Shown piece after piece: positions 22,073 through 33,518 of a stretch of 35,037 nucleotides of DNA. Position 1 is the first letter of the stretch. Each line of letters begins with the position of its first letter. The stretch covers positions 1 to 35,037 of the forward strand of contig SBHJ01000107.1 of the NCBI GenBank assembly GCA_006226465.1, written 5' to 3'. The stretch comes from Alphaproteobacteria bacterium. Lineage in GTDB: Bacteria > Pseudomonadota > Alphaproteobacteria > Sphingomonadales > Sphingomonadaceae. The notes under the pieces are model-generated. The model ran no database searches and was not told where the DNA came from. It was given only the letters and a program-made list of their open reading frames with translations. Both the position numbers and the translations under genes were made by a program.

Positions 22073-23536
22073 TCACGCAGCGTCCCCACCTTCCTTTCTG
22101 CGCCCAAATCGAAGCAGTTCGTACGGGATCATGGTCAAGGATCGCAAGGCCATGATCCCGCCCAAGGTACAGGCGGCCAGGAGCGACGCTTTCCATCCGA
22201 ACAGCAAGGGATGCAACCCCGCCGCTAGCGCGATTGCTCCAACGGGCAACCACAGTTGAGGCCACAACCCACCCAACGGCAAGCCACTCCGCGCAAACAG
22301 CAAGCCGCAATCGACGGCACAGCGGATGGCGAAAGCCGCTGCAAATCCCGGCAGGCCAAAGGCTCCCCCCAGCAACAGCAGCAGCGAGATATAGAATGGC
22401 AGCTCGGCCAGATGGAGCAGGGCGACCGAGCGAGGACTCCCTCGTGCCTGCAACAGGTTAAAGGGAACCTGGGCCAAGGCATTGACCCAAAAGCCGGCTA
22501 GCAGGATGCGTGCGACCAGGATCGAACGGGGGTCCAAATTTGCACCGATCCACAGGTCCAGGAGCGGTTCGGCGAGGCAAATCAGAATAACGATCGGAAC
22601 TGCGTAAAGGATGGCAATAGCGGCTGCGACCTGATTAGCGGAGGCATTCGCCTGTCCCGCATTGTCGCTGGCAAAACGCGGGAACATCACGGTCAGCAAT
22701 GCCTGGGGAAATACCTGCGTCCTGCTACCGACCTGATATGGCACGGCGTATGCGGCGACAGCGACGGCGCCCAGGAACGTGCCGATCAGGAACCTGTCGG
22801 ATAGAATCATGAAAGGCCCGATCACCGCGCTCAGCATGACCCATTTGCCAAAGCGAAACAGTTCAGCTGCTTCGGATGTGCTGGCCTGCCATGGCTGGTC
22901 CTTGAGCAAGTGTCGCCACATTCCGCCAAGCGCCAGAGTCAGCCCGAATGCCCTTCCCGCCAGCGATGCCGCGATCAAGGCGCTCATGTGGTTGCTACCC
23001 AGAGCCGCCACCCCGAGCGGAAACAGCTGCATCAAAGAATTGCCGATGAATGTCGCTAGCGCGGCGGTGCCGAAATTCTGGCTGCCAATAAGGCTGCCAT
23101 GCGCCACGCCGAATATCGTCACGACAGGAATTGTCGCGCCGACAAGCCAGACCGTGTCGATCAGTTCCGCGCGAAGTTCTGCGGAGACATCAAACGGGCC
23201 GGTGAAAAACAGATAGGCCGCTATGCCAGCGAGCACGCCCAAGGCGATCCCGATCGCGCTGTTGGCAACCAGCGCCGTACAGATGGTCTGAGCGCGAGCC
23301 GTGTGCTGGTTGCCCGTCATTGCTGCAATACGCTGCGTGACGGCACGCCCGATACCGAAGTCGGCCTGTCCGAAGTAGCCGAGCAAGAGCCACACAATGG
23401 TCAGCGCACCGAAGCGTGCGGCACCTATGTGTCCGATCAGCAACGGAATGGTGATCAGGGCAATTGCAAGCGGTCCCACACCGCCCATCAGGCTGAAAAA
23501 GCTGTCGCGCAGCGTGGTCGGAGCAGAATGTTTCAC
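22073..23536 (-). CDS. Polysaccharide flippase (Wzx-like)
   Basis: About 12-14 TM segments; FFSLMGGVGPLAIALITIPLLIGHIGAARFGALTIVWLLLGYFGQADFGIGRAVTQRIA is typical of the oligosaccharide flippase N-terminus. Confidence 0.88.
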   Translation of the reverse strand: MKHSAPTTLRDSFFSLMGGVGPLAIALITIPLLIGHIGAARFGALTIVWLLLGYFGQADFGIGRAVTQRIAAMTGNQHTARAQTICTALVANSAIGIALGVLAGIAAYLFFTGPFDVSAELRAELIDTVWLVGATIPVVTIFGVAHGSLIGSQNFGTAALATFIGNSLMQLFPLGVAALGSNHMSALIAASLAGRAFGLTLALGGMWRHLLKDQPWQASTSEAAELFRFGKWVMLSAVIGPFMILSDRFLIGTFLGAVAVAAYAVPYQVGSRTQVFPQALLTVMFPRFASDNAGQANASANQVAAAIAILYAVPIVILICLAEPLLDLWIGANLDPRSILVARILLAGFWVNALAQVPFNLLQARGSPRSVALLHLAELPFYISLLLLLGGAFGLPGFAAAFAIRCAVDCGLLFARSGLPLGGLWPQLWLPVGAIALAAGLHPLLFGWKASLLAACTLGGIMALRSLTMIPYELLRFGRRKEGGDAA

Positions 23537-24438
23537 TTCGCTTCCTGTTGGCGGCCGGGCTTCGGCAGCAACGCGTAGCCTTCGGCGAGGTGCAGTTCCT
23601 CGACAAGCATGCGACGGAGATTCTCCCGCCAGTGATCGGTACTATCTCCGAGCAATTCACGCGTCGCGCTGTCATCCAGCACTGAAAAGGCGGGACGCCG
23701 CGCCGGCGTAGGATGTTGGTCGGTTGAAATCGGGTGAACCGCCGGAAGGCGTGGAACGAGACCCAATGCCTGAGCCTCTTCGGCAATCGCCGTGGCAAAG
23801 CCATACCAGCTCGTTTCGCCGGCATCGCGGTGGTGGTAGGTGCCGGGGCTGTCTGCCGCTGCAAGCGCCCAGATCGTGCGGGCAGCTTCGGGTGCCCAGC
23901 TCGGCGAACCTACCTGGTCGTTGACCACTCTGAGCTCGTCCTGTTCGCGCATAAGTCGCAGCATGGTCCGCACGAAATTGTGGCCGCCTGCGGCATATAT
24001 CCAACTGGTACGCAGGATAATTGATTCATCGCCGGATGCGTCTTCGCCCAACGCCTTGGATCTTCCGTAAACCGACAGTGGATTGCGAATATCATTAGGA
24101 AGATAAGGGCGCTTCGCCTGCCCATCGAAAACGAAATCGGTGGAAACCTGCAGCAAGCGCCCGCCATGGTCGGCAAGCGATCGGGCAAATGCTCCGGGAG
24201 CCTCGGCGTTTACTGCCATGGCCAGCTCGACTTCCTGCTCCGCCCGATCAACCGCAGTAAAGGCACCGGCATTTATCACGAGATCGGGTCGTTCGGCCCG
24301 TACCAGCCGCGCAATCTGCACATGATCCGCCAAATCAAGCGCTGCCCGGTCCAGTCCCCGGCACTCCCAACCCTCCGGAACGCTTGCAAGCAGCGCCTTG
24401 CCCAATTGTCCGCTGGCCCCGGTGACCAGCACCTTCAT
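23533..24438 (-). CDS. rfbD: dTDP-4-dehydrorhamnose reductase
   Basis: MKVLVTGASGQLGKALL, NAGAFTAVDRAEQE, LLQVSTDFVFDGQAKRPY, SVYGRSKALGE, ILRTSWIYAAGGHNFVRTMLRL; ATG at 24438. Confidence 0.95.
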   Translation of the reverse strand: MKVLVTGASGQLGKALLASVPEGWECRGLDRAALDLADHVQIARLVRAERPDLVINAGAFTAVDRAEQEVELAMAVNAEAPGAFARSLADHGGRLLQVSTDFVFDGQAKRPYLPNDIRNPLSVYGRSKALGEDASGDESIILRTSWIYAAGGHNFVRTMLRLMREQDELRVVNDQVGSPSWAPEAARTIWALAAADSPGTYHHRDAGETSWYGFATAIAEEAQALGLVPRLPAVHPISTDQHPTPARRPAFSVLDDSATRELLGDSTDHWRENLRRMLVEELHLAEGYALLPKPGRQQEAK

Positions 24439-24986
24439 GCGAAGACCGGGACTTCGGCCAGTGATAGGCCCCGAGCGTCTCTTTCCGAGATCACGAGTTC
24501 CGCACCTTCCAACGGCCATTCTATGCCCACCGCCGGATCGTTCCATGCCAGGGTGTGTTCGTGTTCCGGCATATAAGGTGCGGTGCATTTGTAGAGGAAA
24601 TCGGTGCCATCTCTTAACGTAAGGAACCCATGGGCAAAGCCTGCGGGAATCCACAGCATGCGCCTGTTCTGATCTGTTAGTTCTACCCCGATCCACCGAC
24701 CGAAATCGGAAGAAGACCGGCGCAGGTCAACCGCTACGTCGAAAACGGCTCCGTTGACGACCCGCACAAGTTTGCCCTGTGCCATCGGAATCTGGAAATG
24801 GAGCCCGCGCAAGACGCCCTTGCGCGAACGACTATGATTGTCCTGCACGAATTCCACATCGAGCCCCGCTTCTCGAAAGCCTTCGGCGTTCCAACTTTCC
24901 AGAAAGAGCCCCCGCGAATCTTCATGCACCTGCGGCTCGATGATCACCGGGCCAGGAATTTCGCACGGGATGAGCTTCACTTGCAT
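24435..24986 (-). CDS. rfbC: dTDP-4-dehydrorhamnose 3,5-epimerase
   Basis: EDSRGLFLESWNAEGFREAGLDVEFVQDNHSRSRKGVLRGLHFQ...FGRWIGVELTDQNRRMLWIPAGFAHGFLTL; ATG at 24986, 4-bp overlap with rfbD. Confidence 0.95.
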   Translation of the reverse strand: MQVKLIPCEIPGPVIIEPQVHEDSRGLFLESWNAEGFREAGLDVEFVQDNHSRSRKGVLRGLHFQIPMAQGKLVRVVNGAVFDVAVDLRRSSSDFGRWIGVELTDQNRRMLWIPAGFAHGFLTLRDGTDFLYKCTAPYMPEHEHTLAWNDPAVGIEWPLEGAELVISERDARGLSLAEVPVFA

Positions 24987-25044
24987 CCGGATCGATCTCT
25001 CGAAGTGTCTGGCCTCGACGACTTGCCGCATGGCGCTGGCTTGA

Positions 25045-26292
25045 TCAACCGGCTTCACCCGCAATGAACGAATCTTCACCGGTCGAGAACTCTCCAGCGA
25101 TCCAGCTGCAAAGCGAAGCATAGCCCGCATATTCGCCACTTCGCTTGACTGTGCTCCTCGCCTTGAAGAAACGAACGCCCTTCTCAATCGCCCATCTGGG
25201 GTAGCCGAGCCAGCGCAGCCTGCTTCGAGGTGACCGCTGCGTGAGATAAGCCAATTCGTTCTGGTTGGGATGAAGGGCCCGGGCGGCCGCCGACATTGTC
25301 CCTGTGCCCCCTTCACTGCGGCCCGCCAGTCGCCACAGTTGCGCGAGCTGACGATGCGTCTCGCCGCGAGCCAGCATGGCACGATCTGCTGCGTCGAGTA
25401 TGTGTACCGGGATCAGTGACTGACTCTCGATCTGCGCTGGAATCCATTCTGCGCCATGCCGCAGCCCAAGCATCACCACCAGCTCCAGCGGCCGCATCAA
25501 TTGCAGTTCGCGCGCTTTGGACAAAACGGCTTCCCAATCCAACGCATTCGCCTTGGCGAGATAATGCAAGTCGGCAAGAATTGTGGGGCCATTTGAGAAA
25601 ACGTGGTGAAGCGTCGCATGCTCGACCAGGTGGAGCAGGTTCAGCCGAGCCGATGGGACGCGGATAGCCTCGCCCATCAGCTCGATCTCTTCGGTTTCGG
25701 CACGGATCATTTCGCACAGCCGTGCATCGCCCGCCCAACCGCGCGCATTCAGCCGGTGATGCAATTCGATCACCAGGCCATGCTCTTCATCGACTATCTC
25801 AGGCAATTGGTGTCCGAACTCAGGCCCATATTGACCGGCCCAAGGCGCGGGTACGAAGCCCTCCTGCGACAGGAGCAGGCTGTGCGCTTGCTCCACTTCC
25901 GATGCAGGCAACAGCAAATCCACATCGCGCAAGACCCGCAGTTGCGGCGCAGGATAATCGCGATAGGCCAATGCGACGCCCTTCAGCGCGATCGGTTCCA
26001 TGCCGGCTTCATGCAGCACCCGCATCGTTCGAACCAACCCGCGCGCCTGTGCAAGGCTGGTCAGCGCCTGATCGCGCGCTTCATGTGCCAATTGTCGCGA
26101 GATCGGGGTTTCGCTTCCGGCCCTGGCGGCAATGTGATGGATCAAGGCCGCGCAGCGCGAACGCTGGGCGAGCATCAACAAGTGATCGCTTTCGCTTTTG
26201 GATAGGCGAGCCAGCGGGTCTGCATTGTCACCTTCGGGATTGGCGAGGCAGGCCAGTAGCACCTGGGCGGCCATATCCTGCGCGAGCTTCAT
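25045..26292 (-). CDS. Nucleotidyltransferase-family protein (NTP_transf_5-like), lasso/RiPP-cluster associated
   Basis: MRVLHEAGMEPIALKGVALAYRDYPAPQLRVLRDVDLLLPASEVEQAHSLLLSQEGF (G-V..A..Y....LR.l.DvDlLl); ATG at 26292 overlaps the ABC transporter stop by 4 bp. Confidence 0.8.
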   Translation of the reverse strand: MKLAQDMAAQVLLACLANPEGDNADPLARLSKSESDHLLMLAQRSRCAALIHHIAARAGSETPISRQLAHEARDQALTSLAQARGLVRTMRVLHEAGMEPIALKGVALAYRDYPAPQLRVLRDVDLLLPASEVEQAHSLLLSQEGFVPAPWAGQYGPEFGHQLPEIVDEEHGLVIELHHRLNARGWAGDARLCEMIRAETEEIELMGEAIRVPSARLNLLHLVEHATLHHVFSNGPTILADLHYLAKANALDWEAVLSKARELQLMRPLELVVMLGLRHGAEWIPAQIESQSLIPVHILDAADRAMLARGETHRQLAQLWRLAGRSEGGTGTMSAAARALHPNQNELAYLTQRSPRSRLRWLGYPRWAIEKGVRFFKARSTVKRSGEYAGYASLCSWIAGEFSTGEDSFIAGEAG

Positions 26293-27983
26293 GGCGCGGT
26301 GCCTTGCCGGTCCAGATCGACAATCTGGTCGGCAATCCCGATCAGCCTCTGGTCGTGGCTCAAGAGCACAACGGTGCACTGCCCGCGGAGCGACCCGACC
26401 GAATGGATGATCGCATCGCAATTGTCCTGGTCGAGCCCTGCACTGACCTCGTCGAGAATCAACAATTGGGGAGCACCCAGCAGTGCTCGTGCCAATGCAA
26501 TTCGCTGCTTTTCACCTCCGGATAACTGCCGGGCTCCTTCGCCCATCCTGGTAGCTAGACCATCGGGCAATTGTCTGACGAAACCGGCCGAAGCCATCTC
26601 CAATGCACGCCACATCTCCGCTTCGTCTACCTCGCTTCGCCCCCAGCTGAGGTTTTCGGCGATCGTCCCGTCAAACAGGTATGGCTCCTGCTCGACATAG
26701 GCGACGTTCCTTCGCCAACCGATCCGGCTGGTGGCATCGAGTGCCATCCCATCGATCAACACTTCGCCGCTATCGGGAACGACCAACCCCGCCAAAATGT
26801 CGGCAAGGCTGCTCTTGCCCGAGCCTGAAGCGCCGCTGACAGCCAGGATCGACCCCTGCGCTACTTTGAGATTGAGTCCATCGAAGACTGAGCGCTCGCG
26901 CCCATGGTAGCGCAAGGTCACATTACTCAATTCCAGCCCATGCTCCAGCGTTACCGCCTGTGCGCCATGATCGAGAAATTCTTCCTGTGCTCGGGCCTCT
27001 GCAATCAGCGACTGAACACTTGCAAGCGCGGGAACGTTGTAGCGCCAGCCGCGCATTCCCTGCTGTATGTTGCCCGCCAGGGGTACAATCCTTGCTATGA
27101 TGGCGACAACCGGGAGAAAAATTGCCAGCGGCATCGCAAACATGGCCAGCGCTCCGAAGACCATTCCCGCCAGCAGCATCACCGCGATGACCTGGAACAG
27201 CATCAGGGTCTCATGGCCGGCCCTGAAGAATCGGGTTTCCAGCTCCACCAATCGGCTGGATGCGCGCGCGAAATTCTGTGCCAGTTCGTGCTCGGCGCCA
27301 ACAATGCGCGCCGCGCGCAGATGCTTCAGCCCGTTCGAAACCAACCGCTGCAATTCGGAATGTGCGCGCACATAGGCCTCGCCTTCTTGCGCATTGCGCC
27401 CCCGCAGCAGCCCGAGCACGAAGGCCGCCGCGACCCCGAGCACGACCACCATCACAGTCAATTGCCAGGATATCAGAGCCGCCGCCGCCACCAGCAAGAA
27501 CAGAGTGACGGCTGCCGCCAGGATTGACAGCGCCTGATCCATCAGTCCCGCAGCCCGGTCAGCCTCGAGCATGATTAGGCTTGCATGATCCGCACTGTTC
27601 TGACGCGCCAGCCAACGCCAGTTCGCGCCGAGTATCGCCTCGTGAACCATGCGCCGCAATCGGTTCGCCAGCTCAAGGTCGAGTGCACGGCGGCTCTCGT
27701 TGCTGGCATAGACAATCAGCGCACGCAGGCTAACCAGGGCCACAACTGCGATCAGCAGCCAGCCGAGCGGCAACTTCGCCACCGGAGCAAGCCATTCCGG
27801 CTGAATCGTGCCGTCATCTGCCTCCGCAACCAATCGTGTGATCGGGACCAGCAAGACCAGGCCAATCCCTTCAGTCAGGCTCGACGCCACCATCAGCATT
27901 CCGAGTACGGCCAGTCGGCCATGCCCAGCCTGACGCATCAGCAAAGCGATCGCCGCTCGGTTCGACATTGGCCCCTCAACCAT
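26289..27983 (-). CDS. ABC transporter, fused permease/ATP-binding (lasso exporter D-type)
   Basis: VSGASGSGKSSLADILAGLVVPDSGEVLIDG, Q-loop and RQLSGGEKQRIALARALLGAPQLLILDEVSAGLD signature; 5-6 TM N-terminus; start 27983 overlaps the upstream stop. Confidence 0.93.
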   Translation of the reverse strand: MVEGPMSNRAAIALLMRQAGHGRLAVLGMLMVASSLTEGIGLVLLVPITRLVAEADDGTIQPEWLAPVAKLPLGWLLIAVVALVSLRALIVYASNESRRALDLELANRLRRMVHEAILGANWRWLARQNSADHASLIMLEADRAAGLMDQALSILAAAVTLFLLVAAAALISWQLTVMVVVLGVAAAFVLGLLRGRNAQEGEAYVRAHSELQRLVSNGLKHLRAARIVGAEHELAQNFARASSRLVELETRFFRAGHETLMLFQVIAVMLLAGMVFGALAMFAMPLAIFLPVVAIIARIVPLAGNIQQGMRGWRYNVPALASVQSLIAEARAQEEFLDHGAQAVTLEHGLELSNVTLRYHGRERSVFDGLNLKVAQGSILAVSGASGSGKSSLADILAGLVVPDSGEVLIDGMALDATSRIGWRRNVAYVEQEPYLFDGTIAENLSWGRSEVDEAEMWRALEMASAGFVRQLPDGLATRMGEGARQLSGGEKQRIALARALLGAPQLLILDEVSAGLDQDNCDAIIHSVGSLRGQCTVVLLSHDQRLIGIADQIVDLDRQGTAP

Positions 27984-29919
27984 CGTTCGAACCTTCGACG
28001 AATTGGACAAATCGGGCAAGCGCGATACCGCGCGGCACGGCGCAAGTCATGCGCAACCAATGGTCTGCACCCTTAACCTCGGTCCCTTCATGCATTTCCA
28101 GATATTGCCTGATCCGCGGCAAGTCGATCACGCTATCCGCAAGCGAGCCATCGCCGATCCGGGCAAGCGACCTGAGCATCGATCCCCGATCACGCGCCAC
28201 TCTCCCCAGAAAGTCGGCTGATTGGATCGCGTTTTGTCTGCCTTCGACAATTTCGTCTGGGATACGCCCCTTGAGCAATCGGCGCGCCAGACTGCGCGGC
28301 ATGCCGTTGCGCAAATACTGCTCGTCAGGGACGCCGGAGCAGAACTCCACCAAAGGACGGAAGGCCAGGGGGCTGCGGGTCTCGACGCCATGCAACAGGC
28401 GCAATCCCAGCGCGATTTCACCGCCTTCCGATTGCGCGGCCGCCAGCATACTGACCCTCGCCTTTGCAGCGGAGGCCGGGGCATACATCCAGGGATCGTT
28501 GCCATCCGCCTCGGCCCGGGCCAGCGCCCCGCGAACGATCTCGCTATTCGGGTCGAGCGGGCACCAAGTTTCGAGCGGTGAGACCGACAGCCCGCGCAAT
28601 TCGTCGATCCGGCGACGCCAAGTGAACGGCAAGTGCGGCATAGCCGCCAGAGACAGAGCCTTGCGCCAGAGCGGACGCTGATCAGGCGAAGCGTTCAGTT
28701 CACGCAGCAGGTGCGCCCATTTGCCGCGCTTCAACCAGGTGGGATAGCCGGTCATTCCATCGTAGCTGAACGCCGCATCGCCAAATTCGCCATCCAGCAG
28801 TACATGTTTGCCGTCGCCGGCAGCCTTGCGATAGAGCCCATGCAGCCAATGCATGTTCATTTCGTTGAAACCGGGACAGCCTGACAGCAGGGCCATCGCA
28901 TCGATATCCGCACCGAATTCTGCCTCTTCGCCAGTCAGGAACACCGGATCGAGCTGCGGATGCATCTCGGCAAATGCATGAACTCGGGCGGATTCATCGT
29001 AAATGAGCCGAGGATTGGCCTTGGGGACCCAGCCCGCAATTGGGACAGCCGTGTAGGACCTCACCCGTTGATCCTGCGGCAATCGGGCAATCAGTGAAGC
29101 AGCGACCGCTTGTGAATCGAGCCCGCCCGACAATTGCAGCGCAGGCGACACAGCTCCTTCGATATTTGCACACACGGCCCGGTCCAGAAGGCCATTGAGC
29201 GCATCGAGGTAGTCCTGGTCGCCAGAAAAAACTTGCGGCGTTACCCTGCCGATATTCCAGAACTGCGCGCTGCGCTCGCCAGCAAGGTCATGGTGTTGCC
29301 GACTTCCGCACGGAACGCGCGACAGGCCCCTGTAATAGCTGCGGCTTCCATCGCCGAAATTGAACAGCGCGACATCAGCGATGCGATGCGGGTCGAGCCG
29401 CAGCTCGACCCCGGACGCGAAGATCGTGCGCGGCAGCGAGGCGGCGATCAACCTGCTCCCGTTGCGCCAGACATAGAGCGGCGGGGCGATGAGCGGCGAA
29501 CGCGCCAGCCGCACGTTTGCCCGATCGGGAAACCATTGGACCGCGGCATATTCACCGACAATTTCTGTGTCGCAGCGCTCGCCCCAGCAGCGAAAGGCGG
29601 CCGCGTAAAGCTCAGCGTCAGACAACTGGGGGGAAGCGCTCAGTCGATCCGCCAAAAATCGGCGCTCCAACAGTCGGCCTGCGAGTATAGTGTAAATGCC
29701 ATCGGCATCCGGTTCCAGCTCCAGCGGCATGATACCCGGCCTATCCGAACCGGGCAGCGCATCGGCCCTCTGGGCGAAGGCAGCTCCCGATTGCATGCAG
29801 TGCCTGATATCCCCGGCCTTGCCCAGTTTCAGGCTGGCTACCATTCGATCCCAGGCCCGCTCCGGCCAGCTTGCCCCAGACAAATCGAATGCGGCGCAGA
29901 TGAGCAGTTGGCGCTGCAC
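27976..29919 (-). CDS. Asparagine-synthetase-like lasso cyclase (C protein)
   Basis: PP-loop LQLSGGLDSQAVAASLIARL; C-terminal Asn_synthase region with LDGEFGDAAFSYDG; N-terminal pseudo-glutaminase lacking the Cys2 nucleophile; directly next to B2. Confidence 0.88.
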   Translation of the reverse strand: MQRQLLICAAFDLSGASWPERAWDRMVASLKLGKAGDIRHCMQSGAAFAQRADALPGSDRPGIMPLELEPDADGIYTILAGRLLERRFLADRLSASPQLSDAELYAAAFRCWGERCDTEIVGEYAAVQWFPDRANVRLARSPLIAPPLYVWRNGSRLIAASLPRTIFASGVELRLDPHRIADVALFNFGDGSRSYYRGLSRVPCGSRQHHDLAGERSAQFWNIGRVTPQVFSGDQDYLDALNGLLDRAVCANIEGAVSPALQLSGGLDSQAVAASLIARLPQDQRVRSYTAVPIAGWVPKANPRLIYDESARVHAFAEMHPQLDPVFLTGEEAEFGADIDAMALLSGCPGFNEMNMHWLHGLYRKAAGDGKHVLLDGEFGDAAFSYDGMTGYPTWLKRGKWAHLLRELNASPDQRPLWRKALSLAAMPHLPFTWRRRIDELRGLSVSPLETWCPLDPNSEIVRGALARAEADGNDPWMYAPASAAKARVSMLAAAQSEGGEIALGLRLLHGVETRSPLAFRPLVEFCSGVPDEQYLRNGMPRSLARRLLKGRIPDEIVEGRQNAIQSADFLGRVARDRGSMLRSLARIGDGSLADSVIDLPRIRQYLEMHEGTEVKGADHWLRMTCAVPRGIALARFVQFVEGSNDG

Positions 29920-29920
29920 T

Positions 29921-30352
29921 TCAGGCCGCTCCGAATTGATCGAAGGTCATGACCGGACAGTAATCGGTCCGAACACATTGGCCGATCAACATTTGGCCAC
30001 CTTGCTCGACCCAGGCGTGATAGGCATGCGGCCCATTCCGGTCGATGCGATGCACGGCGACAACCAACCGCGATGACAGGCGTGCGCGCCGCAACATCCA
30101 TTGCAATGCAACTGCCTTGGGCAGGCATTTGCTCTTACCCGGCAGCCGCATCGCAGCGCGTTCGATCCGTCGGGCGATCGCCAATGCGGTAGCAGCGTCA
30201 GCGGAAACCGGACAGCTATTCCCGTCGGCTCCGGCGATCGACCCAAGCGTCGATCGAAAAGTGCGAAGCGGCGCGATACGCACCAAAGCACGCGCCAGTG
30301 CCAACCAGGCCATGGCCTGCAAAGTGGCGAGGCGGCTACGCCACACGTTCAC
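29921..30352 (-). CDS. Lasso peptide biosynthesis B2 protein (transglutaminase-like leader protease)
   Basis: KCLPKAVALQWMLRRARLSSRLVVAVHRIDRNGPHAYHAWVEQGG carries the Cys/His of Transglut_core3 B2 proteins. Confidence 0.88.
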   Translation of the reverse strand: MNVWRSRLATLQAMAWLALARALVRIAPLRTFRSTLGSIAGADGNSCPVSADAATALAIARRIERAAMRLPGKSKCLPKAVALQWMLRRARLSSRLVVAVHRIDRNGPHAYHAWVEQGGQMLIGQCVRTDYCPVMTFDQFGAA

Positions 30353-30366
30353 TCCAGCCCCCCCGG

Positions 30367-30636
30367 TCAGCTGTACTCGGCGAAACCTGCGTCAACCAGT
30401 CGGTTGGTGAATTGAGCAACAGAACGCCGACAATGATCATGCCCGACATCATAGCTATTGAGCAGCGATTGGACGATAGCATCGGGATCATTGCTGTGGT
30501 CAAGCGCCCGCCAGATTGCGAGGCCCGTACCTGCCAGCGAGAAGAATGCGCCTGTATCCGCTTGGACGAGAATTAATTCGCCATCGATCTCGGCGGCAAG
30601 ATATTTGTCAGGCCGTTTTCGGATGGATGTGCGCAT
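30367..30636 (-). CDS. PqqD-like RiPP recognition element (lasso B1)
   Basis: 89 aa; DKYLAAEIDGELILVQADTGAFFSLAGTGLAIWRALD matches PqqD/B1; next to B2. Confidence 0.85.
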   Translation of the reverse strand: MRTSIRKRPDKYLAAEIDGELILVQADTGAFFSLAGTGLAIWRALDHSNDPDAIVQSLLNSYDVGHDHCRRSVAQFTNRLVDAGFAEYS

Positions 30637-30661: not shown

Positions 30662-30817
30662 TCAACTTGGGGTGGCTGATTTGCCATTGCTGATCTTGTT
30701 ATCGCCCGGCGGAAACGCATTTCCGGCGATTGCAGTCAGATCGACCGTCAATTGAACCAATTCCGGGTCAGACCACTGTTCCCGCCGTGTATCACCAAAT
30801 TCATTTTTACCGGGCAT
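30662..30817 (-). CDS. Candidate lasso-peptide precursor (A), 51 aa, absent from the supplied ORF track
   Basis: Manual translation: MPGKNEFGDTRREQWSDPELVQLTVDLTAIAGNAFPPGDNKISNGKSATPS. Located between the kinase and B1, co-directional; RBS-like gggaag 5' of ATG; WxxPxL leader motif, Thr near the leader/core boundary, Asp39 as macrolactam acceptor candidate, C-terminal Ser. Confidence 0.72.
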   Translation of the reverse strand: MPGKNEFGDTRREQWSDPELVQLTVDLTAIAGNAFPPGDNKISNGKSATPS

Positions 30818-30930: not shown

Positions 30931-31791
30931 TCAGAGCCCTGCAGCTTGGAGAATTTGAGAGGTGCGCTCGCAGGCTTTAGCGACTGTTGCCGATTCGCGA
31001 GGCCTTGTCAGGCGCCAGAAACGCACCTCGCTTGCTAGTTTGAGCATGATGTCGGCATGAAATCCGTGGTTACCTCGCGCTGCGTGAATGAAGCTGCGAT
31101 ACATGGCTTGCGGCAGCATGTTGAGCTTGGTTGCCCCGGTTACCGGGATCAAAGCGAATTCTTTGCCGATCTCGAGGAAGATCAGGTCGCCGAGCGGCAA
31201 CACCCTGGTTTCGCTTCGTCTTGCTTGGCCATAGTGCTTGTCGGGTACGGTTGCGACCGGGCCCAAGGGTGCCACCGCGAGCTGCTTCAATGCATCGCTC
31301 CACAGTTTCATGGGCCGCTTGTCGGGCAGGCAGACTGGCGGGCTTCCCTGAACAGGAAGCACGATCAGTGTGTCGTCGCAGACGTGATCGTAGCCATAGT
31401 CGATCAATCCCGCCGCCAGCGTCGATTTCCCGCCTCCGGAATCGGCGGTGAAGGCGATCACGCGGTCATTGCGCGAGACTGAAGAGGCATGGAGGGGGAC
31501 AAGTCCATTGTACCATGCGACCGCGCCATAGACTGTGCCCCATAAATAGAGCTCGAATTCGCCGCGCAGCGCCTCATCGGGCAATTCGACAATGACCCCG
31601 CCATCCTTGCGATAGTGGAAGCGGATGCCTCCGGGGGTCTCGAACCAGAAGCGATCGCGCGCCATGCAGAGATGGCCGTCCCGATATATAAGCTCTCCCT
31701 CGATGTCGGGGACTGGCAATATCTGTACCGCCATGGCCTGCCTTAGCCCGGCGTTCGCTGCCTCAATTTTGTCGACCGGATCTTCCGCCAT
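30931..31791 (-). CDS. HPr kinase/phosphorylase-like kinase (lasso precursor kinase type)
   Basis: Walker A AFTADSGGGKSTLAAGLIDYGYDHVCDDTLIVLP, typical HPrK-like core; upstream of the precursor candidate. Start could be the internal ATG at 31734. Confidence 0.82.
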   Translation of the reverse strand: MAEDPVDKIEAANAGLRQAMAVQILPVPDIEGELIYRDGHLCMARDRFWFETPGGIRFHYRKDGGVIVELPDEALRGEFELYLWGTVYGAVAWYNGLVPLHASSVSRNDRVIAFTADSGGGKSTLAAGLIDYGYDHVCDDTLIVLPVQGSPPVCLPDKRPMKLWSDALKQLAVAPLGPVATVPDKHYGQARRSETRVLPLGDLIFLEIGKEFALIPVTGATKLNMLPQAMYRSFIHAARGNHGFHADIMLKLASEVRFWRLTRPRESATVAKACERTSQILQAAGL

Positions 31792-31885: not shown

Positions 31886-32215
31886 GTGCACGAAAGGGTA
31901 TCCAAATTGAGGTCGATAGCCTGCAGATTTGCGCTGACTTCAGCTGCCGTCGCCATGGCGCTGGCACCGCTCGTCGCTGAAGCCAATACGCGTGCGGATG
32001 CCAGTCCGGTCTATTATGTCGCCGCGCCAAATGCCCAGCCTGAGTTGCAGAGTGCACCGGAACGCAAGAAGCGCAAAGCCGGTTTGATCTCCGGAGAGGA
32101 TCTGAGTTCGGTCCTGCTTCTGGCCGGGGGGTTTGGATTGGCATTCGGCCTGATCCTGGCGGGTGGCTCATCGAGCGGTGGCAACACTCCGAACCAGTCC
32201 AACGGTGCCAACTAG
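31886..32215 (+). CDS. Small exported/membrane hypothetical protein (GTG start)
   Basis: Signal-like CRFALTSAAVAMALAPLVAEA; C-terminal TM VLLLAGGFGLAFGLILAGGSSSGG. Confidence 0.55.
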   Translation: MHERVSKLRSIACRFALTSAAVAMALAPLVAEANTRADASPVYYVAAPNAQPELQSAPERKKRKAGLISGEDLSSVLLLAGGFGLAFGLILAGGSSSGGNTPNQSNGAN

Positions 32216-33518
32216 CGCCAGGTCCCAACTGACGCTGCTGCTCTGTACCGCCGTGCTGTTCGGCGGTGGAGGTGTCGCCTACGGATTGATGAACCTTGCG
32301 GTTCAATTGGTTGCCCTGGTCATCCTTGCGGTAAACCGGGAAGCATTCACCGCATTCTGGATCAATGCGCCGCGGCCACTGGCGGTGCTCGTGGCGCTGT
32401 CGATCGCGATACCCCTGGCGCAGCTCGTTCCGCTTCCTCCCGATTGGTGGCAGGCCTTGCCCGGACGCGAACTGGCCGCGGAAGCGCGCAGTGCGATCGG
32501 CGCAAACGGATGGTATGGCGCTTCACTCGACCGCAACCGCACCTTGGTAGCGCTGAGCGGCTTGATTGCACCGATGTGCGTGCTGGTCCTGGCCTGGCGC
32601 TTGTCCCAACAAGATTTGGAGCGAGCAGGACTGGTTCTTGTCGCCCTTGCGCTGGCCAACTTTCTGATCGGCGTTCCGCAAGTCCTTTCCAACGGTGCGA
32701 CAGCGATCCCTTATCCGGAAAACCTGATGCCGGGCGTGCTGTTCGGAACTTTTGCAAACCGCAATTCGACTGCGATCTTCCTCGTCGCCTGTCTCGCCTT
32801 GCTAGCGCTGCCATTGGGACGGGCGGGAACGAGCGATCAGCGAGCTATCCGGTTGGTAGTTGGATCCTTGTTGATCGTGGCGATCGTTCTTACCCGCTCG
32901 CGCAGCGCAATGGTGCTGACCACGCTGCCACTTGGGCTGATCGCCTACCAGCAATACTCGCAGTCACAGTGGAGCTTCGCGACCGGATGGAAACGCCCGG
33001 CATTCGTGTTGATCGGCGCGGCTGCGGTATTGGGAGCACTCGCGGTTGCGGTGCCCAACACACGAATCGCGAATAGCTTGGCGCGGTTTTCTGCAGAGCA
33101 GGACGCACGAACATACATTTGGGAAGATGCGACCTTTGCAGCCCAGCGATATTGGCCGGTTGGCGCGGGAATGGGCACATTTGATGAAGTTTTCCAGGCT
33201 GACGAAGCGCTCGAAAACCTGACCCTACGCCGCGCTGGCCGCGCGCATAATGATTATCTGGAAGTCGCGATTGAGGCCGGTTTGCCGGGCATTGCGCTGG
33301 TCGCTGCATGGTTGGCCTTGATCGGCTGGCTGACGCTCGTGGCGCGATCCAGCCCGCACCGGCGAGCCGCATGGACAGGATCGACCATTCTCGCAACTTT
33401 CGCGCTGCAATCTATCACAGATTACCCGCTTCGCTCACAGGCCCTCTTATGCGTCGCTGCTTTCGCGCTCGCATTGCTGGTGAGAAGTGCCCACCCGGAT
33501 CGCGAGCGGCAGCAATGA
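32163..33518 (+). CDS. O-antigen ligase/polymerase-family protein (start uncertain; GTG 32205 is plausible)
   Basis: Multi-TM; Wzy_C-type ARTYIWEDATFAAQRYWPVGAGMGTFDEVFQ...RAGRAHNDYLEVAIEAGLPGIALVAAWLALIGW. Confidence 0.85.
   Translation: MAHRAVATLRTSPTVPTSARSQLTLLLCTAVLFGGGGVAYGLMNLAVQLVALVILAVNREAFTAFWINAPRPLAVLVALSIAIPLAQLVPLPPDWWQALPGRELAAEARSAIGANGWYGASLDRNRTLVALSGLIAPMCVLVLAWRLSQQDLERAGLVLVALALANFLIGVPQVLSNGATAIPYPENLMPGVLFGTFANRNSTAIFLVACLALLALPLGRAGTSDQRAIRLVVGSLLIVAIVLTRSRSAMVLTTLPLGLIAYQQYSQSQWSFATGWKRPAFVLIGAAAVLGALAVAVPNTRIANSLARFSAEQDARTYIWEDATFAAQRYWPVGAGMGTFDEVFQADEALENLTLRRAGRAHNDYLEVAIEAGLPGIALVAAWLALIGWLTLVARSSPHRRAAWTGSTILATFALQSITDYPLRSQALLCVAAFALALLVRSAHPDRERQQ

Follow-up and report, generated by a model that had tools for sequence, protein, structure and literature searches.

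Does the short gap between the kinase and B1 genes of this sphingomonad cluster hide the precursor of a lasso peptide, and if so, where would the leader end and which ring would the core form? The window (the whole stretch of 35,037 nucleotides analysed here) carries a complete cluster in the order K-A-B1-B2-C-D-N, in which A is an unannotated ORF of 51 codons (table below). The initial annotation had proposed this ORF as a lasso precursor, with coordinates that are exact and a translation that agrees letter for letter with ours. It does lie co-directional between the kinase and B1, as was stated, although the gap measures 294 bp and not 295. The ATG, at 30817 on the minus strand, is immediately preceded by the purine-rich GGGAAG, and the stop codon occupies 30664-30662. 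As is the rule in the lasso class, the candidate precursor adjoins B1/B2 and C genes. With Pfam, the products of B1, B2, C, D and N score above the gathering score, and with NCBIfam B2 passes the curated cut-off, while B1, C and K match lasso or HprK-related models below theirs; the family-model scores of K are weak, with the conserved H, GxGKS and DD residues present. The precursor peptide itself matched no Pfam or NCBIfam family.

Features of the precursor gene and its cluster in the window (leader, core and ring as predicted)
Feature	Position	Strand	Evidence
K, HPr-kinase-like peptide kinase	30931..31791	-	HprK_rel_A 1.9e-10, below cut-off; H / G-G-K-S / D-D invariant in 22 relatives
A, precursor peptide gene, 51 aa	30662..30817 (stop codon included)	-	Homologues in the same place in 16 other loci; dN/dS 0.145
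Leader, predicted, residues 1-31	30725..30817	-	Family alignment; BsfA register Tyr(-17)/Pro(-14)/Leu(-12), Ile(-2) (PMC10368454)
Core GNAFPPGDNKISNGKSATPS, predicted	30665..30724	-	Gly1...Asp8 register and invariant C-terminal Ser
Macrolactam ring GNAFPPGD, 8 residues, Gly1-Asp8, predicted	30701..30724	-	Asp8 in 15/17 homologues
B1, stand-alone PqqD-like RiPP recognition element	30367..30636	-	PqqD 5.2e-14, above gathering score; lasso_PqqD_Bac 1.2e-12; TbiB1 structure 5v1u 1.9e-8
B2, transglutaminase-fold leader peptidase	29921..30352	-	NF033537 lasso_biosyn_B2 75.5 bits, cut-off 33; Cys and His-Ala-Trp invariant in 23 relatives
C, asparagine-synthetase-like macrolactam cyclase	27976..29919	-	NF033535 4.5e-37, below cut-off; Asn_synthase 7.7e-23; SGGLDS present
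D, ABC transporter	26289..28019	-	ABC_tran 5.5e-30
N, NTP_transf_5 nucleotidyltransferase-like, PsmN/BsfN counterpart	25045..26292	-	PF14907 3.1e-38; after D or C in relatives

An ORF this short could be spurious, with the true precursor encoded elsewhere, and the leader/core motif does little to settle the matter. The DNA pattern W-x2-P-x-L-x9-[I/V]-x-x7-D is matched five times in the 2.14 Mb of the organism's own genome versus twice in a reversed control, so that the motif alone yields a few chance matches per genome and is by itself weak evidence; the case for a precursor gene thus rests on place and conservation. Two of the five matches are the window ORF and a copy on C308, another contig of this genome, and both sit between a kinase and B1. 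The C308 copy, whose precursor is 82% identical to that of the window, is syntenic: its genes follow the window's order, from Wzy and a small secreted ORF through K, A, B1 and B2 to the beginning of C. Between the two precursors the differences are distributed 8/2/17 over codon positions 1/2/3 (dN 0.100, dS 0.689, ratio 0.145), and the corresponding ratios of the neighbouring genes are 0.157 for K, 0.206 for B1 and 0.275 for B2. The precursor ORF is therefore under purifying selection. This bias toward synonymous substitutions, together with the conservation of position and residues in 17 loci, effectively refutes a spurious ORF, an explanation to which we leave almost no probability. Inspection of the window found no better precursor candidate. 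The C308 contig (G000; L002, L060) shows ~80% DNA identity and falls in the same bin; it represents either a contig of a sister species or a paralogous cluster.

The wider family was assembled from two homologues in other genera, followed by precursor and kinase profile searches for a short ORF after the kinase. A direct scan of genome contigs with the 51-aa peptide gave no match, after which the kinase profile was used, and a single-sequence search of 300 genomes of the family returned mostly noise, from which two homologues stood out clearly, along with some weak matches that later proved to be relatives. The resulting alignment holds 17 distinct sphingomonad precursors (the window, the C308 copy and 15 further sequences from other genomes), which are related by descent, so that the counts given below are not independent trials. 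All 17 have a kinase gene on one side and a PqqD-like B1 gene on the other, and by this placement, the conserved residues and the purifying selection the ORF is almost certainly the lasso precursor of its cluster. The gene content K-A-B1-B2-C-D-N is kept in six named genomes, and its order recurs in Novosphingobium hassiacum, N. jiangmenense, Altererythrobacter lutimaris and several Erythrobacter(aceae) records. One locus (L067, G584) has a sulfotransferase-like gene between kinase and B1, and no precursor of the window's family was found there.

Within this alignment, Trp(-17), Pro(-14), Leu(-9), Asp(-6), Leu(-5) and the C-terminal Ser are invariant. The numbering takes W15 of the window peptide as -17, P18 as -14, L20 as -12, I30 as -2 and A31 as -1. 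The WxxPxL leader recognition motif that had been noted at W15, P18 and L20 is borne out, with position -12 being Leu in 15 precursors and Val in two. Position -2 is occupied by Ile (11 precursors) or Val (6), and core position 8 by Asp in 15, in agreement with the earlier remark that Asp39 is spaced for macrolactam closure; Asp8 is the sole acidic core residue in 14 of these 15. The two remaining precursors, both close relatives, have Gln8 and a core free of acidic residues.

Thr at leader position -2 is usual in lasso precursors, though not strictly defining since BsfA, and the window precursor lacks it, having Ile30 instead. The bsf system offers a precedent, given that BsfB2 together with BsfB1 has been shown experimentally to cut BsfA after Ile(-2), the ring being assigned as Gly1-Asp8, and Ile/Val(-2) precursors of Sphingomonadales have already been listed (Duan et al. 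2023; PMC10368454). As Ile(-2) is an experimentally accepted natural variant, the claim made here is one of membership in the Ile/Val(-2) subset, whose signature of Ile/Val(-2), an aromatic residue at -17, Pro(-14) and Leu(-12) is present, with Ile/Val, Trp and Pro found throughout the 17 precursors. The alignment thus gives good support to a predicted cleavage between Ala31 and Gly32, with Ile30 as the penultimate leader residue and GNAFPPGDNKISNGKSATPS as the core. With Ile30 in that role, the predicted ring is therefore the 8-residue GNAFPPGD, in which Asp39 (core Asp8) is the likely acceptor; Gly1 and Asp8 provide the suitable first residue and the Asp/Glu at core positions 7-9 expected of the class. 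Four canonical Thr(-2) precursors from the same genus as the window (L080, L082, L083, L085) show an identical register of Y(-17), P(-14), T(-2), Gly1 and Asp8.

The earlier reading had left the ring open at 8, 9 or 10 residues, of which only the first stands up well. In paeninodin the ring has 9 residues, and a comparable Ala1-Asp9 ring would arise here if the leader were cut one residue earlier, between Ile30 and Ala31. Ala is common as a first ring residue and the distance to the Asp is equally conserved. Such a start would, nevertheless, place Arg first in four homologues and Glu in a fifth, would put Ala/Ser at -2 and would depart from the 8-residue register of BsfA and the same-genus Thr(-2) relatives; we consider it improbable. 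In the Gly32 register, the first core residue among the 17 precursors is G, A, S, T, N or Q. Metanodin is reported to have Asn as its first ring residue, so that the homologue with N1, and perhaps also Q1, looks less unusual. The 10-residue ring would follow from taking Thr28, previously highlighted near the cleavage site, as the true penultimate residue, with the core beginning at Ile30. That arrangement would restore a canonical Thr(-2) and would shift the Trp to -15, where PbaA has it, yet the Thr28 column is varied in the 17 homologues (S7, T4, D3, G1, A1, E1) while the Ile30 column contains Ile or Val only. Thr28 is consequently ruled out as the -2 residue, a core from Ile30 is very improbable, and a 10-residue ring is not needed.

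We conclude that A very probably encodes the precursor of a phosphorylated lasso peptide resembling paeninodin and pseudomycoidin, with an 8-residue ring and phosphorylation at Ser51, made by the K-A-B1-B2-C-D-N operon. Characterised relatives suggest how the enzymes might act, how the tail might be threaded, which residue might be phosphorylated and what N might do. B1 would bind the leader through W(-17)-x2-P(-14)-x-L(-12), a WxxP arrangement typical of the recognition motif of paeninodin-type leaders and present in all 17 precursors. K would then phosphorylate the C-terminal Ser51 of the linear precursor, and B1/B2 would cut between Ala31 and Gly32, reading Ile30 in place of the usual Thr(-2). 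C would activate Asp39 and join it to the amine of Gly1, which would close the 8-residue ring. The phosphate may receive a sugar or a nucleotide from N, and export of the product would fall to D. Ser51 is the likely phosphosite of K by analogy, the C-terminal Ser being the residue modified by PadeK, ThcoK, SyanK and PsmK and occurring, as expected of phosphorylated lasso peptides, in 17/17 precursors. PsmN, for its part, has been tied to the addition of a hexose to the phosphate. BsfA is phosphorylated on Ser3 and not at its C-terminus (PMC10368454), a BsfK-type site that is unavailable in the window peptide, whose third core residue is Ala.

Of all the steps, threading is the least certain, since the tail is without an aromatic plug and has only Lys, Ile and Lys to offer. 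Hence the product could instead be cyclised and unthreaded (a branched cyclic peptide), or could remain linear with its phosphate, in the manner of the kinase/RRE-based LPP peptides, an unlikely outcome with which the short, plug-free tails of the window peptide and most of its homologues would agree, as would the reported co-occurrence of kinase/RRE RiPPs with lasso clusters. B2 and C are, on the contrary, kept and Asp8 is nearly invariant, so that cyclisation at least is to be expected, and the leader motif is WxxP rather than the YxxP of LPPs. Counted against the threaded, Ser51-phosphorylated lasso peptide that we favour are the BsfA Ser3 phosphosite, the tail without a plug, the position of Trp in PbaA (-15), which indicates that the leader spacing is not universal, the two Gln8 relatives and the B1, C and K scores below cut-offs.

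Comparison with known systems places the peptide in a kind already described (phosphorylated and paeninodin-like, with an Ile(-2) precedent), and it is new as far as our searches reach, the supplement of PMC10368454 apart. The invariant C-terminal Ser as likely kinase site, the nucleotidyltransferase gene and the published Ile(-2) precedent had all escaped the initial annotation. The bsf cluster of Bradymonas sediminis (PMC10368454) matches that of the window in all seven gene types (A, B1, B2, C, D, K and N), and BsfA shares Ile(-2), the aromatic(-17)/P(-14)/L(-12) register and the Gly1-Asp8 ring, which in the window peptide is predicted. BsfA differs in having Tyr(-17), a phosphorylated Ser3 and a terminal Asp, against Trp(-17), Ala at core position 3 and a terminal Ser. 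Paeninodin (PadeA/PadeK) and SyanA/SyanK of Sphingobium yanoikuyae likewise combine an HPr-kinase-like K with a conserved C-terminal Ser, and paeninodin also has the split B1/B2 and the WxxP leader; the window departs from both in its Ile instead of Thr at -2, its extra N gene and its core, and from paeninodin in a ring predicted to be one residue smaller. Pseudomycoidin, from the psm cluster, pairs a kinase with a nucleotidyltransferase-like N and has a C-terminal Ser phosphosite; its producer is, unlike the organism studied here, a Bacillus, and the likeness is drawn from gene types and phosphosite and not from the core. The LPP peptides, kinase/RRE RiPPs of Bacillota, have a YxxP leader, which the window peptide lacks. 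What had been an unannotated ORF is a real precursor, for which a specific core and ring are now predicted, together with an [M+H]+ of 1940.946 for the macrolactam and 2020.912 with one phosphate, and many related precursors would be missed by rules demanding Thr(-2) and Asp/Glu at positions 7-9.

Two by-products of the analysis are worth more attention. The first is an exchange of Tyr for Phe in B1 that accompanies the exchange of Thr for Ile/Val at -2. In the B1 motif G-x-[Y/F]-x-x-L, the variable residue is Phe in all 23 Ile/Val(-2) clusters compared (Phe31 in the window) and Tyr in 4/4 B1 proteins beside Thr(-2) precursors, a small sample from one genus, that of the window. On our reading of the alignment, Tyr38 of PadeB1 and Tyr33 of FusE probably correspond to this residue, in which case the window B1 has Phe where PadeB1 has Tyr. 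The Y38A variant of PadeB1 still bound the leader and hardly supported cleavage, and in FusE, Tyr33 is suspected of contacting Thr(-2) (PMC10368454). The family alignment amounts to a clean natural experiment on the reading of position -2 by B1/B2, with Thr paired to B1 Tyr and Ile/Val to B1 Phe. The pairing of Phe with Ile/Val(-2) is not universal, because BsfB1 keeps Tyr alongside Ile(-2) (PMC10368454).

The second by-product, and the most surprising thing met in this work, lies outside the window. A sister sphingomonad clan, in which the genes run K-B1-B2-A-C-(D), has leaders that end in D-[V/I]-A. Its core position 8 is taken by Gln or, in some cases, by Glu or Asp, and the Gln8 precursors too would escape the rules mentioned above. 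Among the matches listed in a profile search, 28/30 loci have Gln8 and 2/30 Glu8 (four of the 30 being seed sequences), and 19 of the 30 encode a core without any Asp or Glu. The Gln8 loci are L057, L058, L119-L121, L124-L129, L131 and most of L134-L163, and their precursors end in Ser; some carry an Asp7, which could serve a 7-residue ring. The 11 Gln8 loci checked all encode C, and two of them, L057 and L058, have the gene order of the window's clan. No catalytic N-terminal glutaminase Cys, which could deamidate Gln, was apparent by eye at the N-termini of the C proteins of the Gln8 clan. No description of Gln8 clusters was found in the literature searched, a search lying outside most subscription journals. 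It is conceivable, if distinctly unlikely, that the window peptide is part of a broader sphingomonad superfamily whose ring-closing position 8 can be Asp, Glu or, in most of the sister clan, Gln. The C proteins of Gln8 loci would then close rings by a chemistry undescribed for lasso cyclases, either by transamidation or by deamidating the Gln ahead of ligation, and in these small-tailed peptides a modified C-terminal phospho-Ser, bearing a sugar or nucleotide from N, would act as the stopper that holds the tail in its threaded state. At alignment position 279 of C, the residue following SGGxDS is Gln in nine Asp8 cyclases of the window's clan and Pro in most Gln8 cyclases, including both Gln8 members of the window's clan.

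The surroundings of the operon have some recurrent elements as well. On the plus strand, a small divergent ORF at 31886-32215 has a start resembling a signal sequence and contains the motif A[EQ]A[NG]TRA as well as a hydrophobic stretch; many related loci (L003, L004, L052-L055, L057) carry a similar ORF next to their kinase gene. The lasso operon itself is set inside a polysaccharide locus (23533-25382 and 32163-33518), with dTDP-sugar genes downstream and a Wzy/O-antigen ligase gene upstream, and the Wzy neighbour is retained in most relatives.
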